Source of the DNA: Diadophis punctatus similis
Lineage: Eukaryota; Chordata; Lepidosauria; Squamata; Dipsadidae
Direction: 5' to 3'
Assembly: GCA_023053685.1 (NCBI GenBank)
Contig: JALIGW010000028.1
Coordinates: 7,873,782 to 7,937,781, forward strand
Length of the DNA: 64,000 bases
Below the pieces are notes generated by a model. It ran no database searches. It had not been told where the DNA came from and was given only the letters and a program-made list of their open reading frames with translations. A program made the translations under genes and the position numbers. Below, piece by piece: positions 47,301 to 53,300 of this stretch (its first letter is position 1; every line of letters begins with the position of its first letter).

Positions 47301-50300
47301 CGCCCTATTTCGGCACCCGAGGAAAAAAAGGTTCGCCATCACTGCCCTAGGGGTTCCCTAAGACCATTTCAGCTGCCTGCAAAATCAAAATTATTTGCCA
47401 ACCTATGTTGAAAAATAATACAGTATTAAAATCCACTCAATTGTGAGAAGTGGCAGCAGTAACGGATGGCCGAGGAACTGCAGCAGCCCTGCCTGGACCT
47501 ATCTAAGCTTCGGGATTGGCAAGCTGGCTGCAGACAGCGGCACCTCTGCATCAGGAGCACTGAATGGTGTGAAGTGGTATGGCAGGCCAGTGGTGTTGCC
47601 TGGCGGAACTATGGTTTAGGTGTTTTTGCTGAAGCTGTTTGGTGGTACTTGCCCTTTTCCTAAAGATTCAGCGGGCCACAGCCTGTTTGCCATCCTCCAT
47701 TTTGTGGTCTACTCTGGGAAAAGGATGGCAGTTGGCCTGTTTTCTGCATTTCAGTGGCTGTGGCTGCATCCCTGGGTGTAGGAGTCCTGTTTGAATGGAG
47801 GACTGGGATGACCAGGTGAATGCTGGTGAGTGGTGGGTGGGTGATGGTGCTGCAGAAGAGCTGATGTGTATCCTGTGGCTGCCACCTGGTCCAGCAACCA
47901 TCTTAGTAGCTGCTCCTTATTTGTAGGATTCAGGACTTGAATGGACTGTTAGGTTGTGGTAGATGTGGTAAAGGAATACATGAACTGGCAAGGATATTGT
48001 GGGTTTTGGAAGGTTTGGTTGGAGTGGGGCGAACAAAATGAAATATGCCAACATTTGGAAAATCTACATAACTCGGTGGACCAATATATTCCAGATAATC
48101 AAAGCATGATATTAGAATGTTTACACAAAGGTTAGGTTGAAAAATCAACAAAGAGACGTTTATTTAACAATATAATGTTGTGAAGAGAATAGATAAAATC
48201 TTAAGTTGTTTAAGGAGTTATATCAATAAGACTGTTCATCTGTGCTTAATTTCATAATGTCTGATTAGTTTGTCACAAAGGATTAATTTTCCCCTGCTTG
48301 AGATAATGCCAGTGTTAGTTGTCTTAATCCTTTTTCTTTTTACTTTTTTTTTTAAACTTTAACTGTAATTGTCTTTTTTATTTTTAATATGCCCTTCCCC
48401 TTTTCTAAGTTCTCTTAGTTTTATGGTTACATTTGACTGTAACAGTTGCTGAAAACCTGGTTTTCCTTTTGATTATTTATATTCTTTTAAAAAAATCAAA
48501 ATTATTGAAATGAACATTTTTTTCCTGTTTATCTGAATGTATACTGTGCAATTATTTTTTTAAAACTTAAGTTTATTTGCTTATTTAGTGAATTAGTCTG
48601 ACACTAATTCATGCAAACTGATGGTGGATTTCAACGACAATTATATAACTTTTTGTATAGCAGATTAGGTTTAATTTTTTTAATTATATAGTGCAGTTTA
48701 TAGTAATATTTTGCTGTTTAGTTTATAGATAATGATATTACCACTAAGGATTTTTTTGGAGAAATGTTATTTTATTTTTTAAGAAAAATTAATGTCACTT
48801 TGAGCTCCTGGAGGAAAAGCAGGATATTTATTAAACTAATTAATAAAATTAAAATAAACTCCCTTTTCATCAACAGCAAAAATGCATTTTATTTCCTGTT
48901 CTTCAAATATCCTGCATTTTAAACTGCAATAACATTGCTAATACTGTACAGAGAAATAAAATCAAAAGATCAATTAAACAGCATAGGAATTAGGAGCTTG
49001 AATAAAACAAATTGACAGAAGTATGGAAAAATAATAAAGATTTTTGCTTAAAAATACCAAAATAAAAGAGTAAACCTCAGGCAAAATACTACTGCAAAGA
49101 CTCACCGCTTGGTAAAATCTAACCAAATACCTTTTAAGATAGTTGGAATTATATGTTTCTGTAGGTGATGTCACATAATAAAGAGAGACGGTCAAAACGG
49201 GATGAAAAATTGGATAAGAAATCCCAAGCCATGGAAGAACTAAAAGCAGAAAGGGAGAAAAGGAAGAACAGAACAGGTAAGTTCAACCATATATTGTTTA
49301 GTTAAAGAAAAAAAGATAGGGTGAACATAAACCATACACTGTAGATTCCACTGAGCTCCCTACTAACTCTCTCTATATCATTTATAAGATGGAAAGACAT
49401 CCTTGATTGTTTTGAATATTCCTAGTTGTGAAGGAAGGGCACAACATAATCTGGTCCATCATCCTCTTTCTCGTGGTGGCTCACCAGATGCTTTTGAGAT
49501 GTCCATCAACAAGTCCTTCTCCAGCAGTGGTTTTCAAAGGCATTGTAGCATCCTGGACATAATGCAATGACCATCATGACTGCCTATTATTGGTATTTTG
49601 ATCTCCCATTAATTCGTAAAAACCTTTTCCAGATTTCCAAATTATCTACCACTTCTCTAGTGCTTTTTTAATATTCATAAATATATTTTAGATTTCTCAT
49701 ATCAACAATATTTACAGTTGAATTAAATTATTTTTCAATGAATGTAATTATCTCACAGTAAAACTCATTTTCCTTGTATTTTTTTTTAAAGCCAAGAGCT
49801 GTTTTGGACCTGTCTTGTTATTTCAAATAGTTCAAAAACTATTGCTTAGAAATATATTCGGTCAAGTAGAGCAAGGGGAGAATGTTTCCCCACTCCAGAT
49901 CCTGACTCTCATCCCCCAAGCAACAAATGCCATTTCTGCCCCATGCCTAGGCCTGAACTTAAAATAGAAGAAGTCCATATAAACTTCTTCCTTTAGGGCA
50001 GTGCTTCTCAATTATTTTCTGTTACCCCCCCCCCCCCAGAAAGAAGTAAACCTTTTGCGCCCTCCCCCCAACTCTCCGATCTGGGCCCCAATGGAATTTT
50101 AGTATTAATTATTTTACTTATTATAATCTGCAAGCAAACTATTGGCTGGGGAAGGCTGCTCTACCCACTTACCTGGGAGTAAGTCACACTGAACTCAGTA
50201 GAGCCTGTTTTCGGTTAGGCAGGCATAGGCTACCGTGGTTAGGGCCCTCTTTTGACACGGGGCCAGGCCAGCTTAATCAAGCCGATGTTTTGGAGTCGGC

Positions 50301-53300
50301 CCTGGCCCATAAGCGCTGCCTCTGCCGGGCACTCACAGCGAATGGTGTGGAAGGAGGCTTTAGGGTGCCGTTTGAAGCTTTTGCCCAGCTGCAGAGGATG
50401 CTCTCTCTTATCCAGCAGCAGGTTCGCCATGCCGTTCATGGCTACCGTGGCGCCCGCTAAGAACAACAAGAACCCACACAGCCGCCCCACCCCGCCTTCT
50501 CTTCCGGGCTCGGAGCAGCGTGCAACTGGGAAAACACTCCCCGTCCGGGGGAATCGATCGAGAGGGACCACGCATGTTCCCTGGGGTCACACGCGCCTCC
50601 CTGGCATTGCTCCGAGCCCTCCCAGGGGGGCGCACCCCACTATTTGAGAAGGACTGCTTTAGGGGATTCTGCAACAAAAACTCAACCATTATTTTGGGAA
50701 CATGGCAGTAATCGTCCAAGATACCTGAGTCCAAGGAAAGCCTCTTCACAAGAGGCTGTCCCACTGCCATCTGGTATGACTTCCTTTCCTGGAAAGATGT
50801 TGACAGTTCCCCAAAGTGCAGCTAATCAGGCCTTTCACAGTTACCCAAAGAAGCCAAACAAGACACATGGGTCCAAGCCATAAATGATAGAGCAAATATC
50901 AGAGATTCCATACCCACTTCATTAAAGTCCATACATTAAGATGAATCTTAGATCACATTGTAAAGCATTACTCGGTCACTCTCGATTCAAATTTAAGCTA
51001 CCGTATATTCCGGCGTATAAGACGACTGGGCGTATAAGACGACCCCCAACTTTTCCAATTAAAATATAGAGTTTAGGATATACTCGCCGTATAAGACTAC
51101 CCCTCCTACCATCTTTCTTGTTCTTTCTGTCTTTCTTCCTTCCTAACATCTTTCTTTCTTTCTTTCTGTCTTCCTTCCTTCCTAACATTCTTCCTTCCTT
51201 CCTTCCTTCCTTCCTTCCCTCCTTCCTTCCTAACTTCCTAACTTCCTTCTTTCTTTCTTTCTATCCATCTTTCTTTCCTAAAAAAATGTTCTCTGTTCAA
51301 TTACACCTCTGAATTCTGACTAGAAGAAAGCTGGTAGGTCAGAAGGTGATTCATAAGCCACAGAAAAGAGCTCTTGAACCCACCAAAGACTACTGCATCA
51401 GTTTTTAGAGTAAAATCAGTATCTCAGCTTCAGTAATTACTATGCAACTGTAACTTTCAAAGTCATATTTACATGTGCAAAATGGAACTGTAGGGTGAAA
51501 CTCAACAGCTTGAAAACTAAACTCTACTTGCTTTCCTTTTTAAGTAACACTTTTGCCTTTTTAAGAAACCCTTTCCATCATACAGAGTGCAGACTTCGGA
51601 ATTTTCTCCAATCCAGCTCGTACTTTCCATTCTGAGCAGACATTAGCATACACAAACTAAGCAAAATTAAGTAGCAACTGCCACTACTATAATTTGTATG
51701 AAATATATATTGACTGCACGAAGCATTTTCTCCCCTCAGAACTCTGATGTGATGTTTTTCAATCTACCTATGACATTTTAAAATTCCAGATGTAGCAAGA
51801 TCTCAAATTATGAGAAATATATTAATATTTCTGTACACTTCACTGATCCCAAAATATAGGATCTTTCTGTTTCACAACTTTTCCAATTAAACAATCTAAT
51901 TTCATTGTTTGTTTGAATGACACCGAATAAATGTTGCAGATCCCACCTAGGTCTCCTTGCTTGAATCCTTTCATTTCATTGCTTACATGTGGAAGACCCA
52001 AAATGGCACATGAGCCAAGACAGCAGGAGATACCAAAGAAAGTACCTTAGCTAGGAAAACACTGGGATTAAAGGGTGGGGTGAAGAAGGCACTGCTGTGT
52101 AAAAACTGGCAATGCAACAACACTGGGAGATTCCATCTATCTATTATCTATCTATCCATTTATCATCTACCTATTGCTATTGCTATTAAACATTCTTCTA
52201 GGGTCCCAAACACATTTAGCTCATTCTTGTCAGCAATTACTTGTCATTCTGGGCAATCTTCTTTCAATTCCTACTCCCCTCCTACTCTACAGCCAGTCCT
52301 CTTGTGGAAAGAAATTATGAAACAAAATGCAGCTTGTAGAGAAAGGAGCGTGTTCAGATATGGAATGGAAAAAAAAGGAAAGAGAGCGCTGCAATCCAGC
52401 TCCAACAGCGTGTGAAAACTCCTTTTAGCTGATCTGTAGTTCCAGCATGTTGCAAAGGCAGTTAGACCACGCATTGAGACTTGCCTAGTGCCCTCTATGG
52501 CTTTGCCGTGCCCTAGAGCGTGGGCGCGCGCGGGAGGGATTGCAGAGCAGAGGCGAGCGGGGCGAGGCGCGGGGATGCCAGAAGTGGCGACGGCAGGCTC
52601 CTGCCCGCGTTTCCCGCCCGCCTCTTGCCTTAAGCCGCCGGGAGCCTCTGCTCCGTGATCCCTCCCACGCGCGCCCACCTGATGGGAAGACTGCGGCTGG
52701 CAGTGGCGGCCAACAGGAGACGGAGACGCAGGGCGGCTCCTTCGGCCGCTTGGGTGGAGAACGGCGGGGATGCAGCCGCGGCCGTTTTTGAGCTCCCCCT
52801 GGCTCGGAACTTTCAGTAACCGGCGTATAAGACGACCCTCAACTTTTGAGAAGATTTTTAAGGGGTAAAAAGTCGTCTTATACGCCGATACATACGGTAC
52901 TCTTGAAAAAATGTGCGAATGAGTCACAGCAGCTTAATTTCTCCCAAACAGATGGCATGCAATTTTAAATTGTGCCAATTGTGCCATTTTATAACAACCC
53001 ACTGATCTAACAATGGCGACAAATTGATTCTTCAATTTTGTTGTCTCCATGTAGGCTCAAACATGAGCTCAGTCAAGTTTATTTATTGTGCTTCTCTTTG
53101 GATGCTCCAAGCATTGCTTATGTTGCTTCATCTCTCAGAGTTCCCAGAAAGCTAATCTGGGATTGGCAGACAGAAAAAGATTACTAGGCGGTGACCATAT
53201 CAAGTACTCTACTTGTTTCCAGACTCCATAGCTTATTTTGGCACTCGATGAAATGTCAGCTTAGTGAAAAATCCACATCAGGATCTAAAAGGGCCTGGGG

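Follow-up and report, generated by a model that had tools for sequence, protein, structure and literature searches.

The window analysed here is a stretch of 64,000 nucleotides from the snake Diadophis punctatus similis (assembly GCA_023053685.1, contig JALIGW010000028.1, positions 7,873,782 to 7,937,781 of the forward strand). It contains matches to RTF1 on the + strand, with visible splice sites, at 49165-49281 and 53722-53859, and between them, at 49999-50656, an element of 658 bp delimited by inverted ends and by exact 8-bp duplications, CTTTAGGG. Since RTF1 is matched on both sides, the element sits in an RTF1 intron; its cargo, a piece of the gene EAF1, reads on the minus strand, antisense to RTF1. 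An annotation made earlier from the letters alone (the original prediction) had described a hAT-type transposon in RTF1 intron 6 that captured EAF1 exon 1 together with its splice donor. The length, the inverted ends and the duplications were all as it claimed, and so was the location in an RTF1 intron, whose number, which we take to be 6, is counted from the presumed RTF1 start.

The inverted arms of the window element are 77% complementary over 26 nt. Between them, the minus strand encodes about 34 residues resembling the EAF1 N-terminus, as foreseen (Table 1); tblastn of an EAF1 N-terminus against the window gave an E value of 8e-13. The frame runs directly into a splice donor, T/GTGAGT (the slash marks the exon/intron junction), with the T at 50337 and GTGAGT at 50336-50331. 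The motif had been correctly called, and its position, placed near 50327, was off by a few bases.

The whole genome (1.78 Gb) was searched for further copies. Forty of 2,070 first-look candidates were scored, one being the window itself: all 40 matched with at least 90% identity over at least 651 of the 658 bases, and the 39 others were 90-92% identical over nearly their full length. A 22-mer spanning the EAF1 exon 1/intron 1 junction gave, at no more than 2 mismatches, 1,230 matches (611 + 619), one of which is the EAF1 gene, against 0 for the reversed-pattern control. The 40 scored matches and this count place the family far beyond chance. Where one captured element had been proposed, the capture thus stands and the single copy gives way to a family of roughly 1,200, with a consensus of ~671 bp. 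Thirty junction matches from one contig, exact to the 22-mer (L049-L078), served as a positional sample. All 30 match the element consensus, 27 of them end to end; in L049 and L066 the right end is a separate piece (L066 has an exact target duplication despite this split), and L058 holds only consensus 7-339.

Target duplications of 8 bp were scored in both sets. Among 28 top-scoring copies, 17 had exact duplications, 9 had one mismatch, 1 had two and 1 had none; among the 27 full positional copies, the figures were 21 exact, 5 with one mismatch and 1 with two. At least 6 of the 8 bases are thus equal in 27/28 and 27/27 copies, respectively. The 55 full copies show 50 different left duplications, as expected by the original prediction for copies that share their ends; two of the 55 repeat others (L050 and L052 repeat L006 and L008) and were removed from the pooled alignment, leaving 53 copies. 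Fifty duplications agree at 7 or 8 bases; their centre is nearly fixed, with T at position 4 in 46 and A at position 5 in 49. The consensus carries the terminal inverted repeat (TIR) CAGTSYTTCTCAA at both ends, and the family ends can be written as CAGTSYTTCTCAAATAG...AATAATTGAGAAGCACTG. Two EAF1 copies bear a later change, an insertion in L051:1185-2104 (920 bp in all) and an internal deletion in L081 (571 bp), both within exact target duplications. Very short hAT-like elements with exact 8-bp duplications were also seen at L066:2043-2178 (136 bp) and at L033:8375-8480 (106 bp), the latter inside the 50-kb stretch around EAF1.

A search of the genome with the Pfam EAF profile gave two loci, EAF1 on contig C386 and EAF2 on contig C1, told apart by protein comparison. 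In the EAF1 stretch, six pieces of the EAF1 protein were matched in order on one strand, and the ATG of exon 1 lies at about 472517 of G000:C386. The exon 1 donor, CGCT/GTGAGTGCC (CGCT/GTGAGT), is identical to the junction in the element, and exon 2 starts at CTAG/ATGATTTTAAA (CTAG/ATGATTTT). As exon 1 ends in T and exon 2 opens with AT, the split codon T/AT encodes Tyr, which is what had been proposed for this donor.

Four parts of the consensus match EAF1, in gene order: 84-350, 471-523, 524-578 and 577-595 (identities in Table 1). Between the matched intron pieces, gene segments of 178 bp and 99 bp are skipped. Nothing in the 50-kb EAF1 stretch matches the consensus ends, 1-83 and 596-671, so the gene aligns with the interior only, as anticipated; a capture by bypass of ends lying beside EAF1 was rejected on the same ground. 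About 392 bp of the 512-bp interior (84-595) derive from EAF1. The interior amounts to 75% of the gene span of 684 bp (35179-35862), outside the range of 80-120% of the parent stretch used as a length filter for Pack-TIRs; that filter served in PMC8277862 to select young unrearranged cases and is not a defining property of Pack-TIRs. The retained intron start and donor mean that capture took place at the DNA level. Compared with the gene (L034:5179-5862), upstream and exon-1 DNA show 14 differences in about 265 bases, plus two gaps, and the three captured intron pieces 1 in 127. The captured intron is thus closer to the gene than the exon-1 and upstream DNA, the opposite of what constraint would give.

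A search with the EAF1 gene gave 1,666 candidates, of which 40 were scored. EAF1 itself was the sole full-length locus. In the 39 others, the exon-1 piece is always present, as is intron piece B, and 38 have piece A; the skipped EAF1 segments, which could have marked intermediates, occur in none of these 39 loci. Such a single arrangement fits the amplification of one founder.

Elements with related ends and no EAF1 cargo were also found. A 26-mer from the right end gave 2,492 matches (control, 0), about twice the junction count. Eight of the first 100 were read, chosen because they had no adjacent exact junction match: five proved to be EAF1 copies, and three (L080, L085 and L086) were EAF1-free. 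L080 (571 bp) and L085 (569 bp) are bounded by two exact copies of GCTTAAGG and GTTTAGAG, respectively, and have another interior. They match consensus 1-85 at 83% and 85%, and consensus 595-670 at 96% and 91%. For L086 only the right end lay within the stretch read, and the right ends of all three are 91-96% identical to the consensus. A relative without cargo, one mark by which Pack-TIRs are recognised, thus exists, and the DNA-level capture in a Pack-type element put forward by the original prediction is borne out by this sister and by the upstream DNA, donor and intron pieces of the copies. Because the ends are shared and the interior is not, both capture breakpoints can be placed. By eye, the left junction reads GGGGAACATGC/GTGGTCCC, with a 2-nt overlap (GC), and the right one CAGATC/GGAGAGTTGG, with a 1-nt overlap (C); at the internal joints of the interior the overlaps are 0 and 2 nt.

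The interior of L080 contains a 105-aa stretch of open frame, which matched nothing in PDB or NCBIfam and whose zinc-finger-like appearance presumably resembles the N-terminus of Buster-like transposases. Searching with this frame gave 1,624 candidates in the genome. The longest open frame among the 150 scored was 233 aa, so the sister copies seen are also non-autonomous. A profile of the hAT C-terminal domain gave 984 candidates, and ten of the 150 scored have frames longer than 600 aa.

Features of the window element are collected in Table 1. Just beyond it, at 51003-51200, GTATAAGACGAC-type sequence gives way to a TTCC-rich microsatellite. Another RTF1 intron holds a 303-bp short hAT-like element (55752-56054) with ends CAGCGGTTCCCAACC and CAGTGGTTCCCAACC and an exact 8-bp duplication, TTCTAGGG; it belongs to another family, and its target is of the same type.

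Table 1. The EAF1-bearing hAT element and its parts, in window coordinates.
Feature	Position	Strand	Remark
8-bp target duplication, left copy (CTTTAGGG)	49991..49998	.	like the TA-centred duplications at other copies
hAT right end (EAF1 sense)	49999..50077	-	consensus 596-671; common to the EAF1-free sister family
EAF1 intron 1 piece C	50078..50096	-	19 bp in consensus (577-595), 100% to gene; 99 gene bp skipped before
EAF1 intron 1 piece B	50097..50143	-	55 bp in consensus (524-578), 100% to gene; 178 gene bp skipped before
EAF1 intron 1 piece A	50144..50196	-	consensus (471-523) 98% to gene
~120 bp without match in the fetched EAF1/EAF2 stretches or the rest of the window	50197..50314	-	
Captured EAF1 upstream DNA, exon 1 and intron 1 start	50315..50573	-	consensus (84-350) 93% to gene
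EAF1 exon 1 splice donor T/GTGAGT	50331..50337	-	
34-codon EAF1 exon 1 reading frame	50338..50439	-	intact in the window copy
hAT left end (EAF1 sense)	50574..50656	-	consensus 1-83; related to the left end of the sister family
8-bp target duplication, right copy (CTTTAGGG)	50657..50664	.	

We propose, with a probability of about 0.94, that this is a Pack-type non-autonomous hAT family, in which one founder that had captured part of EAF1 was moved in trans to ~1,200 sites, and whose copies are now drifting neutrally. Membership of hAT and of the Pack-TIRs is well supported; affiliation to the Buster group, read from the target sites only, is suggested by the duplication consensus nnnTAnnn given for that group in PMC3517528. 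To judge from the junctions, the short hAT interior of the founder would have given way to DNA copied from EAF1, with ~140 bp of sequence preceding the ATG, exon 1, the donor and parts of intron 1. Template switching, in the course of repair or replication, is the probable mechanism. The uniform structure of the copies and their separate target duplications show that this founder was then mobilised in trans, its transposase being of hAT type and most likely from the Buster group, until it occupied the ~1,200 sites. The copies would since have drifted neutrally, as is seen for their reading frame (see below). Sense copies lying in introns or upstream of genes could, finally, start transcripts and splice into host exons.

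Several observations weigh against this proposal. L015, alone among the 28 top-scoring copies, has no target duplication. Consensus 351-470 (~120 bp) has no match in the EAF1/EAF2 stretches or in the rest of the window; it was possibly lost from the EAF1 intron. The idea that the edge of this insert is part of a common short repeat was rejected, no second copy being present in the window. The junction overlaps, 0-2 nt long, are close to what chance would give and are no proof of template switching. The L080 frame matched the zinc-finger model PF18658 below threshold (E 0.0023, 18 bits, Pfam cut-off 27.3); with a left end only 83-85% alike, the sister is to be seen as a relative and not as a proven progenitor. 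No transposase with the family ends was found, the ends of the hAT C-terminal domain loci not having been read.

Other histories of the element were considered. A piece of processed EAF1 mRNA, inserted by retrotransposition and later bounded by hAT ends, would account for the start of a coding sequence, yet the copies hold pieces of intron 1, the donor and upstream DNA, and their ends and duplications are of the hAT type; intron sequence and upstream DNA refute such a retrocopy, the chance of which is negligible. It is also very improbable that different hAT copies captured EAF1 independently, instead of one founder. Positions 5-6 of the left end fall into two main types, CC or GT, in the 53 aligned copies (L001-L078), as if more than one end type had been involved. 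However, all five non-CpG sites at which a second base reaches at least 20% in these copies are in the ends and none in the interior, the same arrangement recurs in the 39 non-gene loci scored of the 1,666 candidates, and no copies with different EAF1 breakpoints occur among those read. The ends may have been exchanged between elements. Finally, the 178-bp and 99-bp skips and the extra 120 bp could stem from a later change of the EAF1 intron, the element keeping the older intron and being no mosaic made at capture. CAGGC, common to gene and element, immediately precedes the point where the match resumes, which would fit a loss of ~100 bp from the gene there, and AGTTCAG is locally repeated in the gene at this place (by eye). 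Neither gene segment is surrounded by target duplications (by eye), and we consider this explanation unlikely.

The age and fate of the cargo can be followed in the copies. Mean non-CpG divergence from the consensus is 1.9% in the 28 top-scoring copies, a sample biased to similar copies, and 2.6% in 25 positional copies. With an assumed neutral rate of ~2e-9 per site per year, this would correspond to an age on the order of 10 million years for the family. Over the 53 copies, amino-acid-changing changes (N) number 130 and silent ones (S) 68, when 123.7 and 66.1 are expected from the rest of the element, giving an N/S ratio of 1.02 for the 34-codon frame. Since both match expectation, selection acting on the frame as a class was rejected. 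The 5′ part is rich in CpG (the observed/expected ratio is 0.85 in consensus 1-350 and 0.42 in the window), and the consensus and the EAF1 gene have GGGGCGGGGC and CCGGAAG in common upstream of the ATG. These features fit captured promoter DNA, as the original prediction had surmised, and a promoter role is plausible from the sequence. The window copy retains CCGGAAG and has lost the full GGGGCGGGGC.

Whether the cargo does anything at its new sites can be argued both ways. As it combines upstream DNA, an ATG, 34 codons and a phase-1 donor, sense copies could act like HelibatN3, a bat Helitron discussed below; the RTF1 copy, being antisense, is in no position to act as a first exon of RTF1. 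We tentatively suggest that some of the ~1,200 cassettes start chimeric transcripts, by which unrelated genes would gain either the N-terminus of EAF1 (phase 1) or a new 5′ untranslated region (UTR). We give even odds to the cargo being an inert passenger, that is, a piece of EAF1 that is nowhere transcribed and has no consequence in any of the copies, spread having depended on the hAT ends alone. Its coding part evolves at the neutral rate, the window copy has lost a consensus motif, and CpG-rich promoters are often methylated in transposons. The EAF1-free sister, moreover, seems to be high-copy too (the 1,624 frame candidates with 150 scored, and 2,492 right ends for 1,230 junctions), so the cargo is not needed for spread. 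On the other side, the donor is unchanged in 51 of the 53 copies and the ATG frame open in 47, both of which a young age explains as well, and HelibatN3, which is built to the same cassette design, has been demonstrated to trap exons (PMC4778049).

Helitrons are not known to leave target duplications. PMC4778049 reports that Helitrons in a bat amplified the promoters of 15 genes to 4,690 copies, and that HelibatN3, which combines the promoter of NUBPL with six codons and a splice donor, traps exons in human cells. The snake element resembles HelibatN3 in having captured upstream DNA, first codons and a splice donor; it differs in that it is a hAT of the cut-and-paste type, makes 8-bp duplications and carries 34 codons, where HelibatN3 is a rolling-circle Helitron with six. 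Comparable too are the animal hAT Pack-TIRs: Tan et al. (2021, PMC8277862) report 370 Pack-TIRs from 100 animal genomes, 208 of them hAT. They share with our family hAT ends around a piece of a host gene, separate target duplications and a parent gene elsewhere. Four Pack-TIRs (1.4%) are called multicopy there, three in frog and one in alligator; Pack-hAT-N8_XT of the western clawed frog, with the CAPSL 5′ UTR, is a frog example with three transposed copies. Unlike those described there, the present family has ~1,200 copies with exon 1 and donor, plus a cargo-free sister family. In outline, plant Pack-MULE and Pack-TYPE elements (PMC8903248) are likewise non-autonomous DNA transposons with pieces of host genes. 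The Mar miniature inverted-repeat transposable element (MITE) of Drosophila, a Buster-group hAT, is also short and non-autonomous with nnnTAnnn duplications, but arose by internal deletion of its own transposon, and no captured host gene is described for it in the accessible text (PMC3517528). An excess of young hAT elements is reported for a viper (PMC5059746). Among open-licence PMC papers, judged mostly by title, no earlier report of EAF1 capture by a transposable element in reptiles was found, and the excerpts of PMC6609765, PMC8303610 and PMC11872487 contain nothing on an EAF1-bearing element.

The original prediction had regarded such captures as rarely described in tetrapods. Capture by an animal hAT is in fact already known, and the unusual part is the high-copy amplification, as nearly all animal cut-and-paste gene captures in the survey PMC8277862 are single-copy. 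In one genome, the parent gene, an EAF1-free sister and more than 1,000 daughters coexist, which gives direct access to the breakpoints of a capture, to its age and to its fate. The design shared with the bat NUBPL Helitron suggests that transposons of two unrelated classes have converged on a first exon that is mobile. A possible new first exon is now dispersed over ~1,200 sites of this snake genome; if some of the cassettes do start chimeric transcripts, the family would be the hAT counterpart of that Helitron in a tetrapod.

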